Assembly (NCBI GenBank): GCA_964035015.1
Contig: OZ036002.1
Coordinates: 7,165,643-7,229,642, forward strand
Source of the DNA: Corallium rubrum
Taxonomy: Eukaryota > Cnidaria > Anthozoa > Scleralcyonacea > Coralliidae
Reading direction: 5' to 3'
DNA: 64,000 nt
In this document: in pieces, positions 3,881 to 60,400 of the stretch
Layout: every line of letters starts with the position of its first letter
Position numbering within the stretch: the stretch's first letter is position 1
Translations under genes and position numbers: made by a program
The notes under the pieces: model-generated
What the model saw: the letters and a program-made list of their open reading frames with translations, nothing else
Database searches by the model: none
What the model was told of the DNA's origin: nothing

Positions 3881-4075
3881 AACATATATTATTTCATGCT
3901 AGCAAGGACAAGCTGGAAAACCACATTCTTACTCTCGAGTTCAGTGGAAAAAAACCCAACAAAATACAAAACAGTCAAATTTTGTATCTTGTTGCAAACA
4001 TCTAGGTGTTCATCACAACAATGATTAAACAAAGTTTAACTGGCGTAGTTAGATATAAGTTAGGCAACTGAACTA

Positions 4076-21100: not shown

Positions 21101-24100
21101 AAAGTTTCGCGGGCTTTTTTATGGTATTTCCATTGATTGTGCACAAGGAGGATAAAGGATTTAAGACGACGTTTCCATTCTTGTTTTCGATAAAACAATG
21201 TTCTTTGCAAGTATCAGGACCATTAATCACTATAGAAAAAACCATCTCAAACTTAAAGTGACTTTATTTATTAGAGGGTAACATATGACAGTATTTGGAT
21301 ATACTGATAACCCAATAGCCCTCACACTTGATGGAACTAAAGTTGAATAATAATTGTCAGTTGTTTGCTGTACAAGCTGTGTTGGTAATACTCAGAAAAA
21401 CTCTGAGCTCTAAGCGGGACTCGAACCCGCAACCTTCTGAATGCTAGCCAGACGCTCTAACCATTGAGCCACTAGAACTCAGATAGCAGAGCAAGGTTAT
21501 TTAAGGTAATTATACCTTAGACCGTGCACAGTCCTTCGGGAACGAGTCTTAACCGCTCGGTTACAAGTACTTGTTGGTCTACAAGTCGCGTTGTAACAGT
21601 AAGTTTCCAGTTAAACACTGTTAGTTCGTTTCAGAAATTGCAGCTTGATGTTAGTAATAATTGTCAGTTGTTTGCTGTACAAGTTGTGTTAGTTGGTAAT
21701 ACTCAGAAAAAATCTGAGTTCTAAGCGGGACTCGAACCCGCAACCCTCTGAATGCTAGCCAGACGCTCTAACCATTGGGCCACTAGAACTCAGATAGCAG
21801 AGCAAGGTTATTTAAGGTAATTATACGTTAGACTGTGCCCAGTCCTTCGGGAACGAGTCTTAACCGCTCGGTTACAAGTACTTGTTGGTCCACAAGTCGC
21901 GTTGTAACAGTAAGTTTCCAGTTAAACACTGTTAGTTAGTTTCAGAAATTGCAGCTTGATGTTAGTAATAATTGTCAGTTGTTTGCTGTACAAGCTATGT
22001 TAGTTATTCTGGCTAGCATTCAGAAGGTTGTGGGTTCGAGTCCCGCTTACAGCTCAGAGTTTTTCTGAGTATTACTAACTAACACAGCTTGTACAGCAAA
22101 CAACTGACAATTATTACTAACATCAAGCTGCAATTTCTGAAACTAACTAAGTTGAATAAACTAGGGAAAGTATGGTGTTGATTTTGCAGAGAAAGGAAAA
22201 CCGGAGAACCTAGTGAAAAACTCTCCAGGCACAGGAGAGAACCGACAACTCTACTCAAATGAAGTTAATGTTCGAACTGGCTTAACTTCAGCGGCGACAG
22301 GCAGCGTGCTAACAGCTTGTGGCACCCATGCTTCAATACATTGTGTGGGCGGCGTGAACTTCCGAATATGTTATCGAGTAAAATGCCCAATATTACTTCT
22401 AATAAACCCAATTCTCCCCTGGCATTACCACCTTAATGTATACAGAACTCCGGATCAAGCTCTCGGCAACGGCCTCCGTGGTTCAGTGGTCAGAGCATTG
22501 CACTAGAATCGCAAGGTCGTGGGTTCAATTCCTGCCGGAAGGCCTGTGTAGTTGCATTTTTCGCAACTGGTCCCAGTTTGGTCTTAAAATGTATATATTC
22601 TATACTCGAATATTGGCTATATGGCTATTCACGTCTTACCTATGTCTTGTTTTTGAGAAGCATCTTGTCGACCAACTGTCGTTCGCCCTTCCTGTTTGAA
22701 AGTCATAAGAGACATTTATTTTGTTTTGTTTCACATTTAAAGCAACATAACAGCTCATCTGTACGAGGAGCTAAGCTTGAGTTTATTTACGTACTGTTAA
22801 ATGATAGACTACTATGCCAGTGCTGAATAAATCATCATCAACTACCACCAAATGAGGAAGACACGAATCCATTTTAACGCCAACTCCTTCTCTTTGTAAA
22901 GCCATCTCTCTTTCCTGAGGCGAGGAGAGAAAACCAAAAACGAACCGTTTTGTTGGTTGAAAGAATAGGAGAATGCAGGAGGGAAGGCAGAAAGGAAGGA
23001 AGAGAGGAAGGAAGGCAGGAAGAAGGGAGGGAGGGAGGGAGGGAGGGAGGGAGGGAGGGAGGGAGGGAGGGAGGAAGGGAGGGAGGGAGGGATGGAGGGA
23101 GGGAGGGAGGGAGGGATGGAGGGAGAGAGGGAGGGAGAGAGGGGGGAGGGAGGGAGGGAGGGAGGGAGGGAGGGAGGGAGGGAGGGAGGGAGGGGGGAGG
23201 GAGGAAGGGAGGAAAAAAGGAAGGAAGGAAGGAAGGAAGGAAGGAAGGAAGGAAGGAAGGAAGGAAGGAAGGAAGGAAGGAAGGGAAGGAAGGGAAGGAA
23301 GGGAGGAAGGGAAGGGAAGGAAGGGAAGGAAGGAAGGAAGGAAGGAAGGAAGGAAGGAAGGAAGGAAGGAAGGAAGGAAGGAAGGAAGGAAGGAAGGAAG
23401 GAAGGAAGGAAGGAAGGAAGGAAGGAAGGAAGGAAGGAAGGAAAAAAGGAAGGAAGGAAGGAAAAAAGGAAGGAAGGAAGAAACGAAGAAAAGAAGGAAG
23501 AAAGACAATAAATAAAAAAATTATCCACCTCCAATATCTTTTGTGTTTCTCTCCACCGATCTTTCCACTTATCAGTAAGTTCACTAACTCTGGCCTCGTT
23601 TTCAGATAATTTTTTAGCAGCAGCCAATTCAGCAGCTCCAAGTGCTTCCTACAAAGAACAATCAAAAATCATTCAGTGTAATCCGACAACAAATACTTTC
23701 CAAAACAAGTCCAACTCACACTTACAGGGTTAACCATTGCCTTAAGCCGATCAATCTCCGCCTTCAGCTCTCGGATCAATTTCACGTTTGAATCTTCGTT
23801 AACTGTCGGTTTATTAATAATGTTCTTGGCTCTGTTGGCGTATCTCAGTGTGCTTAATGTTTCAGCGTAATTAATATCCGCGGGAGAGATAGCTACACAA
23901 AGGAAAAAACAATTTAGAGAGTGTTTAATATTTACCGCTGGGGTTATGTTCGCTTAATTGCAGTCTAGTCAAACTTTATACACAGTGTCCTGTAACTTTC
24001 TTCCCGTCATAAAGAGGCAGTAAGACGCAAAAATTGTCTATCCCAATTTTGATATTATTCAGAAGTGTTCTTAAAATAAAGATATAACCTCTTCGCTTGT

Positions 24101-27100
24101 TCAATTTCTCATTTTGTTCCAAAAGATATTTTGGTTTTAAAAAAATTCAAATAAGATACCTTATGACATCATCTACTCCACTAATCCCGTAAAGGAGGAA
24201 TATCTACAGAAATAGCTAGATTGTGCTGAAAGTTTGAAGCTGTTCTAATACGAATGGTACGTTGCAATGTACACAATTATTGCTTTATATATTCCTCATT
24301 TGGGGAAGTTTGTTTGATCTGTGTGGAGTAGACGACATCATAAGGCATCTCATTTGCATGTTACAAAAACCTGAATATCTCTGGAACATGATGAGATATT
24401 GATTTAATAAGAACGCTCTACTTGCTCATACGGAAAGTACTTCTAGATAAAATCAAAATTGAAGAGAAGAGTTTCCATCTTACTGCTTACGCGTTTAATC
24501 TTCGTATGAGTGAGTGAGTGAGCGAGCGAGCGAGCGAGCGAGCGAGCGAGCGAGCGAACGAACGAACGAACGAACGAACGAACGAACGAACGAACGAACG
24601 AACGAACGAACGAACGAACGAACGAACGAACGAACGAACGAACGAACGAACGAACGAACGAACGAACGAACGAACGAACGAACGAACGAACGAACGAACG
24701 AACGAACGAACGAACGAACGAACGAACGAACGAACGAACGAACGAACGAATGGAATGAATGACTTTATTTCAATGTCGATGTATTTAGTTTTTACAAGTA
24801 ATTGAACCAATCAATTTTTTCCTCAGCGTATCCTTTCTGTTAAGCACTATAGCTCCCTCCTTCGCACCAACTTACTTGCGATCATTACAGTTTTCGAGTT
24901 TCCTCCCAGACTGTCTTTCAACAACCACGTCAACACGGAATCACGGTAAGGAATAAAGACTTTCTTTTGAGGATGCATAGAAGCATCGGCTAAAGATGTA
25001 AAGTAAAGATTATATAAATTTTAAAACTAAATTCAGGTCTCAAGCTCCAAATACGCGCAGGTCATATTGCAACTGAGACCCCGTTTACACTAGAGCAAAA
25101 GTATCCGGATTCACATTGTTTTTTATTCCCATGAGGATGAAAAACAATGTGAATCCGGATACTTTTGCTCTAGTGTAAACGGGGCCTGAGTGTAATAAAA
25201 GTAGCGTGCTGCGTAGGCAGTGTAGAAACAACAATCGAAATATAGTAAGGTTAGATATACTGCCGAAACAGAGAACGTAGGAGTCTAACGTTTCGAACAA
25301 AACGTAAAGAGTGTAAACAAACAATAAGCTCATTGTTTAAAAAAAGGTTGAGAAGGTTGTGGGTTCGAGTCCCGCTTAGAGCTCAGAGTTTTTCTGAGTA
25401 TTACTAACACAGCTTGTACAGCAAACAACTGACAATTATTACTAACATCAGGCTGCAATTTTCTGAAACTAACTAAGCTCATTGTTTGTTTACACTCTTT
25501 ACGTTTCTCTCTGACGAAGGGCCTTCGTTCGAAAGTCGAAACGTTAGACTCCTACGTTCTCTGTTTCGGCAGTATATCTAACCTTACTATATTTCGATAT
25601 TGCAACTGAGGTGGGTTCTTGTGACTGATCATCAAGGTTGTAATTTCAAAAACGGTTTGTCAGTTGAATAGACTAAATTTAAATAACAGTAAATATAAAA
25701 ATAGGTACGCAAATGTTGTCTACCCAAATGTGATATAACTGTTCCCAAGGTGACCAGCGATTTATTTATAAGAGCGCCTTCCTTTAAGCGATCTCCCGTT
25801 GCACCAGATGCATCAGCTCGTTCACTGAAAAACAAATTAGAAAAGTATAGGGAAATTTTACAGTTTACCGTACCCGAGTAATTCAGCGATTCCTATGCCA
25901 CCAAGCGAGATTAGTTTGCTGACCTAACCCAAACAAAAACCCTAACCCTAATCAGTAACCGTGTTTACCGCTTATTTTATACGCTTACCGACCCACTAAC
26001 GTGTTTGTTGCCTCGCTTTATACGCTAACCTGACACAGTGATGACTCGGGTACGGTAAAGTGTAAACTACCCCACATATCACTGTGTCAGGTTAGTGTAT
26101 AAAGCAAGGCAGTGAACTCGCTAGTGGCTCGGTTAGTGTACAATTACGATAAGCGGTAAACACGGTTAGTGATTAGGATTAGGGTAATTAATTGTTTGGG
26201 TGAGGTGATCAGAATTATCTTGCTTGCATGGTGGCATAGGTTTCATAGGTGCCATAGGTGGCATTCGTTTGTTCACACACCGAAAAAGCGTCGTTGTTAG
26301 TTGTTTTCGTGTTGACTATGTGGTTATTGTTGTTGTTGTTATTTATATTTTGGGCCCGCAGTAATTGGCAACTACAATCATTGACATAATTCTTGAAACA
26401 AAGCTAACATGAAATGGTTTCATACTCCCCCTTCCCCCCACTTCAATGTTGTGGAACTCAAAACGTTTGCAATTTGCACTCAGTCACCTGCCATTACATT
26501 TAAATGTTCAGAGTATCAACATTGAAAAGGGGGGACGGGGGGATAGTAATTCATGCAAAAAAGAGGCCTAGCAATTAACATGGCATGATTCACTCAAGTC
26601 GTTTCAACTAATTTTGTCAATGATTGTCTGAATTTACGTTAATAATTCTCCGTACATTTTTCGTTGCAGAGAAACGGCATATTTTACCCACGACTGCGCA
26701 AAGTGATCTCACATACATTTAACACATATATTGATCGCTAACAACAAACGATAATTTTAAAGGTTAATTACATGACGTCACCATGACGTCCTAATGTTAA
26801 CTTTCACTACGCGGAAATCAGGTTCAAAATTATTGTCGGTTTAAAAGCTGCGCACGCTCTCTGTATTTCCATGATGAATTTATAATTCTGATACAAAACC
26901 TACACGTAAAATTAAAATCTGCCGATAACTTTATTGCAGATCTATCATGAAGGATAATGTATACCCTGCACTTGCGCAAATAATTAAAATATTTGACCAT
27001 TCATGCTGATATAAAGAGAAAAATCGGGAAGAAATTGTCTTAAGTTAATGCCCAAAAGAACAGAACAAATTGTTTGCAGCAAGGGGGAAAACATTCTTTC

Positions 27101-30100
27101 ACCAGTTGCATTCATTAAAAACTTGTCAATAGAATAATTACCCAAGGCTTCGAATTCATCTCAAGTTACAACTGGCACCCGTGTTATAAAAGAGCTCATA
27201 TGTCAAGGAACATAAATAAACAATGAATTGAGGAGTTCAGCTCGATTTCAACAAAAATAATCCATACCCAAACATTTCTCCTTATACTTTTATCATTACA
27301 AATAGTTGACAACACATATATACTTCTAAGATATCATTGCACTTTGCTGTGTACGAGACCGCTAAAATTAAGCTCAGTTTACCACACTTTACCACAAACT
27401 TCGCATAATATTCAGTGCAATTTCAACTGAAATATTCGTTACACAAAGATGTTTTTAAACTTTAGCTCTATTTAAGCATTAAGTGGACATAATTGTTGCA
27501 TTTGATCACACTTTACCATATACTTACAATAAAATTTAGTACACTTTACCACACTTTACCACAATCTGCATATATAAAAGAATCATAATCTAATTTATTA
27601 ACATATGCATGGTAAAGTGTGGTAAAGTGTGGTAAAGTGTGGAAAAATACAGAATTGATATGGTAAACTGAATTGATATAAAACGATGTAGCTAAGAAAT
27701 TACTATAAACAGTTCATTTCACTCGAAATAATTCTATAACACTATTTATTTGTCCAATATAACGCATGCTAAGCAGCAAGGCGCCATGTTGCGATAGACC
27801 CCCTGGGAAATTTGTTCAAAAAAACAAGACATGTTGGGCTATTTCTCCGGTTGGACGTAATCGTATACGATCGATTGCAGAAACCGCCTAAATTCCATGT
27901 TATTCCTGACGCTTAAATTTTATTTACGAATAATTCCTGTTATGCTGCCACACTAATTCCACTATGTTCTTTCGCGAAAAATGATCATTCAAAGTAATTG
28001 AGCAACCAGCGGCACATGAGCCACTCGACTTCGCCACGGTTCTATAGAAATTCAATAGGACGAGAGTTCTTTTATCAAACTACTAATCTTTTTCTAAATG
28101 ACTTGGTAATTTCTTAACTAGAGTGGCTTCTTCGACTTGTTTTGTCACATAGGTCATTATGCCTGTGAGCCGTGGCATACGCAACTTCTTTTAAATGGCT
28201 ACAACTGTAATTAATCGCTTGCTTAATGCTTACAAAAAAATTATTGTAATCCCGTTCGACAATATAATATGCATATAAACTAACCACATATTCTTCTTTA
28301 GCATATTTTAAAACATTAATGGTCAATCCATCAGAGAAAATGGCTTTTTATGAATTAAATCTGTTGCGTTTGCGTCCAATTTGTTCTCAGACAATCATTG
28401 ACATAATTCTTGAAACAAAGCTAACATGAAATGGTTTCATACTCCCCCTTCCCCCCACTTCAATGTTGTGGAACTCAAAACGTTTGCAATTTGCACTCAG
28501 TCACCTGCCATTACATTTAAATGTTCAGAGTATCAACATTGAAAAGGGGGGACGGGGGGATAGTAATTCATGCAAAAAAGAGGCCTAGCAATTAACATGG
28601 CATGATTCACTCAAGTCGTTTCAACTAATTTTGTCAATGATTGTCTGAATTTACGTTAATAATTCTCCGTACATTTTTCGTTGCAGAGAAACGGCATATT
28701 TTACCCACGACTGCGCAAAGTGATCTCACATACATTTAACACATATATTGATCGCTAACAACAAACGATAATTTTAAAGGTTAATTACATGACGTCACCA
28801 TGACGTCCTAATGTTAACTTTCACTACGCGGAAATCAGGTTCAAAATTATTGTCGGTTTAAAAGCTGCGCACGCTCTCTGTATTTCCATGATGAATTTAT
28901 AATTCTGATACAAAACCTACACGTAAAATTAAAATCTGCCGATAACTTTATTGCAGATCTATCATGAAGGATAATGTATACCCTGCACTTGCGCAAATAA
29001 TTAAAATATTTGACCATTCATGCTGATATAAAGAGAAAAATCGGGAAGAAATTGTCTTAAGTTAATGCCCAAAAGAACAGAACAAATTGTTTGCAGCAAG
29101 GGGGAAAACATTCTTTCACCAGTTGCATTCATTAAAAACTTGTCAATAGAATAATTACCCAAGGCTTCGAATTCATCTCAAGTTACAACTGGCACCCGTG
29201 TTATAAAAGAGCTCATATGTCAAGGAACATAAATAAACAATGAATTGAGGAGTTCAGCTCGATTTCAACAAAAATAATCCATACCCAAACATTTCTCCTT
29301 ATACTTTTATCATTACAAATAGTTGACAACACATATATACTTCTAAGATATCATTGCACTTTGCTGTGTACGAGACCGCTAAAATTAAGCTCAGTTTACC
29401 ACACTTTACCACAAACTTCGCATAATATTCAGTGCAATTTCAACTGAAATATTCGTTACACAAAGATGTTTTTAAACTTTAGCTCTATTTAAGCATTAAG
29501 TGGACATAATTGTTGCATTTGATCACACTTTACCATATACTTACAATAAAATTTAGTACACTTTACCACACTTTACCACAATCTGCATATATAAAAGAAT
29601 CATAATCTAATTTATTAACATATGCATGGTAAAGTGTGGTAAAGTGTGGTAAAGTGTGGAAAAATACAGAATTGATATGGTAAACTGAATTGATATAAAA
29701 CGATGTAGCTAAGAAATTACTATAAACAGTTCATTTCACTCGAAATAATTCTATAACACTATTTATTTGTCCAATATAACGCATGCTAAGCAGCAAGGCG
29801 CCATGTTGCGATAGACCCCCTGGGAAATTTGTTCAAAAAAACAAGACATGTTGGGCTATTTCTCCGGTTGGACGTAATCGTATACGATCGATTGCAGAAA
29901 CCGCCTAAATTCCATGTTATTCCTGACGCTTAAATTTTATTTACGAATAATTCCTGTTATGCTGCCACACTAATTCCACTATGTTCTTTCGCGAAAAATG
30001 ATCATTCAAAGTAATTGAGCAACCAGCGGCACATGAGCCACTCGACTTCGCCACGGTTCTATAGAAATTCAATAGGACGAGAGTTCTTTTATCAAACTAC

Positions 30101-33100
30101 TAATCTTTTTCTAAATGACTTGGTAATTTCTTAACTAGAGTGGCTTCTTCGACTTGTTTTGTCACATAGGTCATTATGCCTGTGAGCCGTGGCATACGCA
30201 ACTTCTTTTAAATGGCTACAACTGTAATTAATCGCTTGCTTAATGCTTACAAAAAAATTATTGTAATCCCGTTCGACAATATAATATGCATATAAACTAA
30301 CCACATATTCTTCTTTAGCATATTTTAAAACATTAATGGTCAATCCATCAGAGAAAATGGCTTTTTATGAATTAAATCTGTTGCGTTTGCGTCCAATTTG
30401 TTCTCAGACTGTCTGAATTTACGTTAATAATTCTCCGTACATTTTTCGTTGCAGAGAAACGGCATATTTTACCCACGACTGCGCAAAGTGATCTCACATA
30501 CATTTAACACATATATTGATCGCTAACAACAAACGATAATTTTAAAGGTTAATTACATGACGTCACCATGACGTCCTAATGTTAACTTTCACTACGCGGA
30601 AATCAGGTTCAAAATTATTGTCGGTTTAAAAGCTGCGCACGCTCTCTGTATTTCCATGATGAATTTATAATTCTGATACAAAACCTACACGTAAAATTAA
30701 AATCTGCCGATAACTTTATTGCAGATCTATCATGAAGGATAATGTATACCCTGCACTTGCGCAAATAATTAAAATATTTGACCATTCATGCTGATATAAA
30801 GAGAAAAATCGGGAAGAAATTGTCTTAAGTTAATGCCCAAAAGAACAGAACAAATTGTTTGCAGCAAGGGGGAAAACATTCTTTCACCAGTTGCATTCAT
30901 TAAAAACTTGTCAATAGAATAATTACCCAAGGCTTCGAATTCATCTCAAGTTACAACTGGCACCCGTGTTATAAAAGAGCTCATATGTCAAGGAACATAA
31001 ATAAACAATGAATTGAGGAGTTCAGCTCGATTTCAACAAAAATAATCCATACCCAAACATTTCTCCTTATACTTTTATCATTACAAATAGTTGACAACAC
31101 ATATATACTTCTAAGATATCATTGCACTTTGCTGTGTACGAGACCGCTAAAATTAAGCTCAGTTTACCACACTTTACCACAAACTTCGCATAATATTCAG
31201 TGCAATTTCAACTGAAATATTCGTTACACAAAGATGTTTTTAAACTTTAGCTCTATTTAAGCATTAAGTGGACATAATTGTTGCATTTGATCACACTTTA
31301 CCATATACTTACAATAAAATTTAGTACACTTTACCACACTTTACCACAATCTGCATATATAAAAGAATCATAATCTAATTTATTAACATATGCATGGTAA
31401 AGTGTGGTAAAGTGTGGTAAAGTGTGGAAAAATACAGAATTGATATGGTAAACTGAATTGATATAAAACGATGTAGCTAAGAAATTACTATAAACAGTTC
31501 ATTTCACTCGAAATAATTCTATAACACTATTTATTTGTCCAATATAACGCATGCTAAGCAGCAAGGCGCCATGTTGCGATAGACCCCCTGGGAAATTTGT
31601 TCAAAAAAACAAGACATGTTGGGCTATTTCTCCGGTTGGACGTAATCGTATACGATCGATTGCAGAAACCGCCTAAATTCCATGTTATTCCTGACGCTTA
31701 AATTTTATTTACGAATAATTCCTGTTATGCTGCCACACTAATTCCACTATGTTCTTTCGCGAAAAATGATCATTCAAAGTAATTGAGCAACCAGCGGCAC
31801 ATGAGCCACTCGACTTCGCCACGGTTCTATAGAAATTCAATAGGACGAGAGTTCTTTTATCAAACTACTAATCTTTTTCTAAATGACTTGGTAATTTCTT
31901 AACTAGAGTGGCTTCTTCGACTTGTTTTGTCACATAGGTCATTATGCCTGTGAGCCGTGGCATACGCAACTTCTTTTAAATGGCTACAACTGTAATTAAT
32001 CGCTTGCTTAATGCTTACAAAAAAATTATTGTAATCCCGTTCGACAATATAATATGCATATAAACTAACCACATATTCTTCTTTAGCATATTTTAAAACA
32101 TTAATGGTCAATCCATCAGAGAAAATGGCTTTTTATGAATTAAATCTGTTGCGTTTGCGTCCAATTTGTTCTCAGACAATCATTGACATAATTCTTGAAA
32201 CAAAGCTAACATGAAATGGTTTCATACTCCCCCTTCCCCCCACTTCAATGTTGTGGAACTCAAAACGTTTGCAATTTGCACTCAGTCACCTGCCATTACA
32301 TTTAAATGTTCAGAGTATCAACATTGAAAAGGGGGGACGGGGGGATAGTAATTCATGCAAAAAAGAGGCCTAGCAATTAACATGGCATGATTCACTCAAG
32401 TCGTTTCAACTAATTTTGTCAATGATTGTAGCTGTTGCGGTAACCCTGCCAAATTATTTACTGTGTATATTGTTATTGTTATTATTGGCAAAGCTATTAA
32501 ATAAAAAAAAAAAAGAAAAAAAAAGGAATCGCTGAATTACTCGGGTACGAAGTTGGTAAAGTTTTTTCGTTTATTTTCGAGTCCCGTCTGGAGCTCAGAG
32601 TTTTTCTCTGAGTTTAACTTACGACAGCTTGTACAGAAAAACCAAAAGAAAAAATCTTCATATTGTTCGTATCTTTAAACGCTTTTAACTTACCTTCCCG
32701 CCAGATCTACAAGGTTGATCTTACTAACAGTCTCACTGGGCATATCGTGATCAAATTTCGCCTAGAAATAAGCAGAAAAAAGTTAGGAAGGAAATTCTGA
32801 AGCACACAGCTCGCAGTGTTTGCTGACGTTGCGCTAACGGTTAGAACAACGTCATACGCTATACGTAGGTTTATTTACCACTTCCGATTGGCTGTGCTTT
32901 GTGCAAAAAAGAAGGTCGTTTGATCATGGATAGTAAAAAGACAATTTACAATCCATGGTTTACTTTGATCTCATTTTGAACACGAAAAAAATGTATTGGT
33001 GTGTCCACCTGCGGTGCCTTTTACTCAATTTCTTTTCTGTTTGAACACAGGGGCGTAGGAAGCCTGATAAACTTAGGGGGGCCGACTCCCACGAGGCGCC

Positions 33101-42841: not shown

Positions 42842-51694
<8,853 letters not shown>

Positions 51695-57472: not shown

Positions 57473-60400
57473 CTAGCTTGCCTGTAATATTATTGTCAAT
57501 TTATCCCAAAACGTCCTTCCAGGCGTCTTGTCGTAATTCAAATAATGATAATTCCTTGAGACCGAGCACCATTTCGGTTCGTTTTCTAATATCTTTGGCA
57601 GTGGATCGTTGTACTGCGGAGACTTCGCTTTGATTGTTATCACCGACGGTGGCGAGATTTCGATAAACACTTCCCTATAAAAGAAACCAAAAAAGACAAT
57701 ACTCCATTACACTCGTCAGTTTTCAGACCACGGTATCAATTGACTATCTTTACTCCTTTCGCGCCTGTCTCGTTTCTTTTGGAAGGATGCAGACTTTAAT
57801 AAAAAAAATTAAACTAATCTTAGTTATACTGAATAGCTCTATCAGTTATATCTAACTGTTCTCCCTAGAGGTCGAGTAAGGGACATGCCTTATTGGTCCA
57901 GTATTATTACTACAGGAGGAAACTGGAGTACCCGGGGAAACCTGTGGTGTTTGGTAGAGTCAGAGGCCCCGTTCACACTATACTGGATAGGTTTTCGTGC
58001 CGGCACAAAAAATATCCAGTATAGTGTAAACAGATTCGATCGGCACGATATTGTGCCGAAGTATAGCCCCGTTCACACTATACCGGATAGCTTTTGTGCC
58101 GGCACGAAAACCTGACGATACAACCAATCCCCACGCTCTATTCTATTAATTTACTTCCGGAACGATTTCGAACTCCGTTCACACTGGAGCTGGAACAGCA
58201 CAAAAAGCTATCCGATACAAGATGTACCTCTTTCGAGATCGGAGCGGCGCAGCGGCGTGCCGGCACAGAAATTGTGCCGGAGCAGGTGTTTCGTGTGTGA
58301 ACAGAAGGCGGTATTAGAAGCACTCTTCTCACATGCCGCCAACGTGAACTTTTAATCAGATAACTGAACTGAGGCGGTATAAAACCTGCGTCGCAGAGGT
58401 GAAGGGCACCCTGTGCCAACGAGTATTTTATCATATGTCGCCGATGGTAGCCGATCGTCGCCGACCCATGATTTAGATGCATGTTAAGTAAAAGAATAAA
58501 AGCACTGCTTTCTGCATTGTTCTTTATTACTTAACATGTTGCTGCACTTCCCGTTTTAACATGCATCTAAATCACAAATCGCCGACAATCGGCGACATAT
58601 GAGAACCAGACTTAAAGGGACAGTTCTCGGGCGCCAAGGGGTTAAGCAATGCGTACCTTTCTTTTTGAGGACAGGACAATAAGATTCCAACATCGTGTTC
58701 GTTGCTTTCAAATAAATCTCGCGTAGTTTCCAAAAAGGTATTGTGTTTGACATTCCAACCAAGACGTAAAGCAAGCTTTTTAGCAATTCCCAGCATAAAA
58801 AGTTGAACCTGCATATAGAAAAAAACACACAAATCAATAAAAACAAAATCTTCATTAACATCATCGCGTCTATCACTGGGTTAAAATTAAGCCTGGTTTC
58901 CATATAAGATCGTCTCGATCCATCCAATCAGATTGGGTGATTCTAGATATCTCTCGTCTGATTGGAGAAATCAGAAATTTGGGCAATCAGGGGGGGGGGG
59001 CGCGATCTTATGGAAATCTGGCTTAGGGAGTTGTTGTAGGAGATGTGGGAATTGTACAGGTGTAGCGAGCATTTTTCTTTAAAATAGTTTACCTGATTTC
59101 TTAACATTAACTTTAGTTCTTGGGTGTCGGCAGAAAACGTCACACCAATCCCATCATGCTGTGTGACGTGTACTGTGTCGGTGCCTACTTTGACAGCAAA
59201 GCATCTTCTAAATATGAAAGAGCAAAGCATCTTCTAAACATGGGGAGCACGGGTGGCGTGTGCTGTTAGCGCGCTGCCTCTCACCAAAACGTTAAGCCCG
59301 GTTAGACGGGGTTAGTACTTGGATGGGTGACCGCTTGGGAATGACCCGTTGTCGGGCTTGGACTCATGTGAGTAGAGTTGTAGTTGATCTCTCCTGTGCT
59401 TCGAGGGTTTTTCGCCGGGTTCTCCGGTTTTCCTCCCTCCATAAAATCAACACCTAACATCTTAGCTGTGTTCCGTGGTCTGAACTGTGTCGTTGGCGGC
59501 AGCTTCGAGCGCCTTTGATATGCCTCGACACGGCCATGTTGATCTGCGTCCTTCGCAATTCAGCCGCTGGCTGCAAGTAAGGATGATTAGCCACCCAGTC
59601 CTTTACCCTTTATATTCACATTTGCTAAAACAAACTCTGTAACATTTGTCCCCTTCCACCCAATGTTATAAGGTTGTTTTCCACCAACTAAGCGACGATA
59701 TTTTTCAAGCGAAGCCACCTTTTGCTTTTGTCTTGGCTGATTAGTTCCACCTGAGCTAAGGCTCTTTTCCAGTCATCGCAAAAACCAGCTCGCAACTCGC
59801 TCCGAGTGTTTACATCTAATTAAAACCAACTCGCAGTGCTTGTTTTCTCGCTGTGAGTTCTTTTTAATGAGATACAAGTACTAGCAGCAAGATGCGAACT
59901 AGTTTCTGCAATGAGTGGAAAAGAGCCTTTAGGCTAGATTTCCACTTGGCAAAAAATGTCGCGCAAAGCGAGATTTCCTTTTGTCTCGCGAACTCTCAAC
60001 ACAGAAGTGGAACTAATCAGCCAACACAAAAGTAAAACGTCGCTTCGCCCGAAAAATATCGCTCAGTGGAAAATAGCCTTACTATCCTCATTAAAAACAT
60101 TCCAATCGGTCGTCACCATTCGGATAAAGATCGTATAAAGCACGAAGTTGGAAGTTAATATACCTTTCTGTTCTGCCTCTCAGTGCAATGTATATGGTCG
60201 CAAAGGACGAAGTCTCTGTAGATAAAGTACTCCAATGACATGACAGTAATGGATCGTGAATGTCATCAGCCAGTTCGTGAATCACGCGAGAAACTCTGTT
60301 GAAGAAAATTGTTTTAAAGTTCTGTTAGTTCTTGCTGTACAAGCCGTTGTTAATCAGGGAGGGAAGGAGGGAGGAAGGGAAGAAGAGAGAAAGGGGAGGA

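Follow-up and report, generated by a model that had tools for sequence, protein, structure and literature searches.

A TA-bounded composite array in a Corallium rubrum kinesin intron and the dispersed, probably Tc1/mariner-type family to which it belongs

How does a block of several identical units come to stand in a gene intron between a single pair of target duplications? The question is raised by a 64,000-nucleotide stretch of the Corallium rubrum genome (GenBank assembly GCA_964035015.1, contig OZ036002.1, positions 7,165,643 to 7,229,642), referred to here as the window, in which a 252-bp element (M) alternates with a 1765-bp unit (X) inside a kinesin gene. We consider the window copy to be, quite probably, a non-autonomous member of a composite-like, array-forming family of IS630/Tc1/mariner type, mobilised in trans. 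The body of such an element would be an internal X between two direct copies of M, which is palindromic and resembles a miniature inverted-repeat transposable element (MITE). The transposase would come from elsewhere, most likely from sister elements with the enzyme encoded in their own X; acting in trans, it would cut two M copies at their outer ends and insert the whole at cTAg, duplicating the TA. The M-X unit would then multiply tandemly at or soon after insertion, most likely through out-of-register repair or unequal exchange. The transposase would also take out single M copies, whether internal or terminal in an array; scars of about 3 bp would remain, and its breaks may feed array expansion.

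Anatomy and target site of the window array

The window array has the layout TA-M-X-M-X-ctg-X-M-TA and resolves into the following features.

26373..26374, no strand: left TA (cTA), copy of the target duplication, read from the flank
26375..26626, plus strand: M1, MITE-like outer left terminal repeat, 252 bp, recognised by its fold, self-comparison and free-standing copies elsewhere
26627..28391, plus strand: X1, internal unit of 1765 bp with no long frame, from self-comparison
28392..28643, plus strand: M2, inner M, flanked by GA and TC
28644..30408, plus strand: X2, same sequence as X1
30409..30411, plus strand: CTG scar, an X-X junction that lacks M, of the same kind as at 94 genome junctions
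30412..32176, plus strand: X3, same sequence as X1
32177..32428, plus strand: M3, outer right terminal repeat
32429..32430, no strand: right TA (TAg), copy of the target duplication, read from the flank
27535..27640, no strand: inverted repeat of ACTTTACCAC motifs within X, repeated in X2 and X3, from self-comparison

A first-pass annotation, made from the letters of the window, had given the M-X-M-X-X-M order with coordinates and unit lengths that proved exact to the base; the CTG at 30409-30411 is an addition to it. Its reading by eye that the copies are identical and recent also held, with 0 differences among the three X and 0 among the three M, as did its observation that TA borders only the outermost M ends and that inner M copies are flanked by GA and TC. 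M itself is palindromic, though imperfectly: it begins with CAA, finishes with TTG (ends CA...TG), and has 12-bp ends, CAATCATTGACA and TGTCAATGATTG, that match exactly. Its predicted DNA fold reaches -46.6 kcal/mol, compared to -24.3 (sd 3.6) in 200 shuffles, none of which was as low. X of the window holds no long open reading frame (the longest is 77 aa), in keeping with the annotation's statement that it carries no transposase, and Rfam searches over the X hairpins gave only matches below gathering scores.

To characterise the insertion site, flank pairs were read for 14 elements, comprising 12 arrays and two solo M. The flanks are TA/TA in 13 of the 14; the base preceding TA is C in all 14 and the base following it is G in 12, so that the insertion target is best written cTAg. 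At the inner borders, exactly one base separates the M end from the X motif in the first 100 of 415 M-X junctions; this gap leaves no space for a TA, and an inner M copy with its own TA, which would have spoken against a composite moving as one, was found at none of these 100.

An empty counterpart of the insertion site is available for one locus (L010). Its joined flanks align through the junction to two copies of one window repeat, at 59274-59615 (316/349 identical) and at 50966-51296 (302/339); left of the junction the alignment covers just 27 bp, and the empty-site copies show CCGG and TCAG where L010 has CTAG. This paralogous empty site agrees with insertion for L010. For the other loci, a search within the examined stretches gave no usable junction-spanning match to the joined flanks. 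The left flanks of two elements on separate contigs, L013 and L019, share a nearly identical 50 bases; therefore, a single host repeat was hit twice at one and the same position.

A genome-wide family and a sister subfamily carrying transposase

The whole genome (474,352,983 bases in 312 contigs) was searched with exact count patterns, for which each reversed control gave 0 matches. The first-pass annotation had proposed counting M copies across the genome and looking for empty sites; besides the empty-site paralogues of L010, this yielded 84 solo TA-M-TA elements (168 matches of a palindromic pattern), 289 terminal M (TA on the outer side, TC on the inner), and 344 inner M flanked by GA and TC (688 pattern matches). 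Window-type M-X junctions total 415. The window array is one of many: there would be about 140 arrays if all 289 terminal M belonged to pairs. M has the features of a MITE: it is short, non-coding, and inverted at its ends, and it occurs in solo copies with their own TA duplication. A separate search with the 2-kb unit likewise gave many matches; because scoring covered 15 of its 587 initial candidates, it provides a lower bound that is biased toward close, repeated copies.

Pairing by eye was applied to the first 100 rows of the terminal-M list (289 in all) and gave 42 convergent pairs (16 unpaired rows were dropped); a sister type was recognised by the first letters of M. Among these pairs, 26 are of window type, spanning 2.2 to 33.8 kb (7 below 3 kb), and 15 are of sister type, spanning 2.5 to 31.6 kb (3 below 3 kb). 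Arrays of up to 33.8 kb, homogeneous locus by locus, are long tandem arrays in the sense of satellite DNA, as is the run of X units on C57 described below. One TA-bounded 2.2-kb element, at C1:10026870-10029114, carries two M that are mutually inverted.

Fourteen stretches and then three more were examined closely. Counting that of the window, both outer ends were readable in 12 arrays.

L018: M-X-M
L012, L015, L016 and L017: M-X-M-X-M
L014: M-X-X-M
L011: M-X-X-M-X-X-M
L009: M-X-M-X-M-X-M
window and L010: M-X-M-X-X-M, the third X of L010 being split by a nested insert
L054: M-X-X-X-X-M-X-M
L055: five X and six M

The insert nested in the third X of L010/L053 (C30) is about 3.4 kb long and has a 10-bp duplication. 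On the right flank of L014, two tandem short palindromes with ends like CAATCCTGGACA abut the array and share its TA.

The sister subfamily has a different M, with the same TC/GA inner border and the same ends as the window type, and it is here that transposase matches occur. A genome search for DDE_3 (PF13358) scored 150 matches of 748 candidates. Of the 58 matches listed on C1 and C8, 13 fall within 8 of the 15 sister arrays, where 0.05 would be expected at random, and 0 of the 26 window-type arrays contain one (Fisher P = 7e-5, arrays counted). It is because of this difference that the window copy is most likely non-autonomous. DDE_3 orientation agrees with M orientation in 8/8 arrays. In six arrays, the outermost match begins 970-971 bp from the array end and lies in a stop-free frame of 315 to 374 aa; two sister arrays with shorter units have frames of 239 aa with one stop (C1:45968820) and 242 aa, stop-free (C1:70320831). 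DDE_3 copies on C32 are spaced 4003-4007, 3847, or 3756 bp apart; spacings that differ by about 250 bp would be expected if a single M were putatively present in some units and lacking in others.

The first-pass annotation had proposed that the composite moved as one unit by its M ends, with X as cargo. Movement by the outer ends is consistent with the single flanking duplication. X is probably not foreign cargo caught between chance MITEs, however, since the sister arrays hold transposase matches inside. It is improbable that two Tc1/mariner MITEs happened to flank an unrelated X and carried it off with the transposase of a quite different element: free-standing M at 84 sites and the frameless X of the window agree with such an origin, but the TA expected from each MITE insertion is missing at the inner borders, and the identical TC/GA border recurs in a subfamily with a different M and internal transposase matches.

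Scars, array growth and rival explanations

Junctions at which two X meet in the absence of M offer a second line of evidence. A search that allowed spacers of 0-12 bp retrieved 94 window-type X-X junctions in 30 clusters, with spacers of 3 bp in 85, 4 bp in 5, 5 bp in 2, 2 bp in 1, and 7 bp in 1. Both this tally and that of the M-X junctions demanded exact window-type X ends and therefore missed diverged and sister units. The spacer letters at the 22 junctions shown are CTG (13), CAG (6), CAGTG (2), and TTG (1); in loci read throughout, the scars are CTG in the window, L013, and L014, CAG in L010, CAGTG twice in L011, CA in L020, and CAG three times in L054.

These lengths correspond to the 2-3 nt footprints of IS630/Tc1/mariner elements, and the 3-bp spacers look like excision footprints of that group, which points to excision as their probable cause. 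Sleeping Beauty (SB) and mariner transposases nick 3 nt inside the element, and the 3-nt overhangs become footprints (PMC7827188). Because M starts with CAA and finishes with TTG, the CAG, CTG, and TTG scars could derive from overlapping 3-nt overhangs of M ends. If M is excised, then TA-C(A/T)G-X is expected where a terminal M has departed; this predicted scar occurs at 5 sites in the genome, with 0 control matches. Judged by their coordinates, two of these sites mark the open end of elements with an unpaired terminal M: the distance from C8:22367983 to such an M at C8:22369766 is one X, and that from C1:34103716 to another at C1:34099771 is about 3.7 kb.

Units are most alike within loci. 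X copies of the same locus differ by 0-3 substitutions per 1765 in 9 of 11 multi-unit loci (14 in L016 and up to 12 in L054), compared to 23-65 substitutions between loci; the exception is a closely related set (window, L009, L010, L054, and L055) with 1-10 differences. A 34-unit tree groups the units by locus for every one of the 11 loci, with support below 95 for L009 and L054. Insertions dating back to the locus branches would predict 23.5 differences among the outermost M of five loci, but only 1 is observed; this small difference reflects either recent insertions or conversion extending to the ends. A stitched piece of contig C80 was excluded on account of 874 conflicting positions.

Array growth was ascribed by the first-pass annotation to recombination between M copies. 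Such recombination is not the sole route, since C57:469695-498403 contains 17 X-X junctions at a spacing of 1793 bp (one at 1792), a run of X of more than 28 kb with no M. On C52, X-X junctions recur about every 4122 bp. From the periodicity of the junctions on these two contigs, units multiply also in higher-order form and without M. We favour growth in place, probably aided by cuts at M, rather than arrival of the arrays in finished form.

Delivery of ready-made arrays is nevertheless a possible, if less probable, account: M-X would be amplified during transposition, through a circle or rolling-circle step or through the use of any two M of a homogeneous donor array. It would explain why units are near identical within 9/11 loci while loci differ, the difference of 1 between outermost M in five loci, and the presence of 3 to 5 units, in differing layouts, in copies as closely related as the window, L009, L010, and L055. 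Local conversion could also explain the sameness, however, and the higher-order M-X-X repeats and M-less X runs point to growth in place. Directional or rolling-circle synthesis in particular was considered and rejected: six loci (L010, L013, and L019-L022) seemed truncated on the right, and L010 proved complete, ending in M-TA; the apparent truncation was overturned for L010 alone of the six. An assembly artefact in copy number is a very unlikely source of the arrays. Identical copies are where assemblies fail, and some arrays lie on short contigs (C80, C101, C104, C107, and C286), but multi-unit arrays recur on large contigs with varied layouts and scars (CTG, CAG, CAGTG, and CA), and units in some loci carry their own substitutions.

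Still less credible is a long terminal repeat (LTR) retroelement or a terminal-repeat retrotransposon in miniature (TRIM) with M as its LTR and arrays that share LTRs. Such retroelements generally have target duplications of 4-6 bp and repeats that lack a palindromic fold, whereas the family described here has a 2-bp TA duplication, a palindromic M with inverted ends, 3-bp scars, and DDE_3 in its sister arrays. Direct terminal repeats, solo M, and arrays with shared repeats would look alike in both, and long arrays of the Cassandra TRIM are on record (PMC7215508).

Several observations weigh against the Tc1/mariner-type composite that we prefer. Among the scars, 9/94 have lengths other than 3 bp (2, 4, 5, or 7 bp), and junctions within a cluster, of which there are 30, are often copies of one event. 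Inner M copies lack TA, so that their removal involves an assumption, namely, excision in the absence of TA. DDE_3 is missing from 7/15 sister arrays among the matches listed, matches within one array are copies rather than independent cases, and the tie between the transposase and the M ends is one of position in sister arrays. Of 141 matches to a Tc3-type helix-turn-helix (HTH), the stronger ones compared lie outside M-ended elements; the sole M-ended one (C8:25156914) is weak, below the cutoff, and 620 bp inside a terminal M row. Finally, L016 carries CA/CA flanks, and its M diverged more than its X (7/252 versus 14/1765, P = 0.0045); L016 is an older array whose units have drifted apart.

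Known systems and the host intron

The closest body plan that we found belongs to KolobokP. According to Kojima and Bao (2022), its internal region (INT) is enclosed by long terminal direct repeats (LTDRs), each of which has short inverted ends; the known forms include solo repeats, abutted internal units, and (LTDR-INT)n-LTDR arrays within one target duplication; there is evidence of terminal-repeat excision; and the transposase lies in the internal region (PMC9587614). The window family likewise has an internal unit, direct repeats with inverted ends, and solo, monomer, and shared-repeat array forms. KolobokP belongs to the Kolobok superfamily, with 5'-RR/YY-3' ends, 3-5 bp duplications lacking strong preference, a His-Me finger homing nuclease, and repeats of about 450 or 660 bp. 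The window family, unlike KolobokP, has TA in cTAg, ends CA/TG (and hence not 5'-RR/YY-3'), DDE_3 in its sisters, repeats of about 252-264 bp, and arrays of up to 34 kb. A profile of the His-Me nuclease (PF05551) gave 0 matches in the genome and likewise none in the control genomes.

The window family resembles Tc1/mariner (IS630) elements and their MITEs in its TA duplication, inverted ends, DDE_3 in sister arrays, and scars near 3 bp. To our knowledge, the usual members of that group occur singly and have just one inverted end pair; they are neither composite nor arranged in end-sharing arrays. Tenzen and Ohtsubo in 1991 reportedly described a bacterial IS630-associated composite transposon whose ends are IS630 and which targets TA in CTAG; it shares superfamily and CTAG target with the window family. 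Coral CMITE arrays resemble the window array in being tandem whole MITEs with highly similar spacers; their authors tie them to piggyBac, and an array-wide target duplication or scars are not among the features described in the parts available (PMC2872659). Xenopus miDNA4, as described in a review, is a Tc1/mariner MITE with an internal satellite of variable copy number, in which the repeat lies within one end pair and the MITE is not in the repeating unit (PMC12628747). Among titles and abstracts open in PubMed Central, we found no arrayed Tc1/mariner element bearing long terminal direct repeats, which is weak evidence of absence.

As far as this search went, the body plan had been described only in another transposon group, that of KolobokP. 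We suggest tentatively, and with more doubt than confidence, that composite-like array-formers arose a second time, in Tc1/mariner and with no homing nuclease, and that a single transposase, by removing M from arrays, also makes the breaks through which M-X multiplies, so that one enzyme seeds and grows satellites of up to 34 kb at scattered cTAg sites. KolobokP is presented as unlike other DNA transposons, and its arrays are tentatively linked to a captured homing nuclease (PMC9587614). A family of Tc1/mariner type that shares this plan, and whose arrays are more numerous, longer, and marked by legible scars, would provide an independent test of what causes arrays, as well as a countable route from cut-and-paste transposon to dispersed satellite DNA, gene introns included.

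Other Tc1 lineages of this genome likewise stand in arrays and may follow the same scheme. Tandem series of the Tc3-type HTH were observed at C22:3545225-3576072 (about 2357 bp) and C136:845382-867470 (2361 and 2126 bp), with further series at C181, C37:8972932, C30:1681114, and C15:16448750 (spacings of 3961, 4104, and 4080).

The window array itself sits in an intron of a kinesin gene on the minus strand, and the exon translations join across this intron. The splice sites lie at about 32693 and about 25825, and the array occupies 6.05 kb of the intron's approximately 6.9 kb. A nearby exon is similar to kinesin motor chains, with OSM-3 and KIF1A as best matches. Across the entire window, Rfam gave nothing above the gathering score except three tRNA matches in kinesin intron sequence (21406-21478, 21717-21789, and 22472-22543), which are possibly tRNA-derived repeats. 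A large inverted repeat adjoins the array at 25892-26240, and its GGGTACGGTAAA motifs resemble the ACTTTACC motifs of X.

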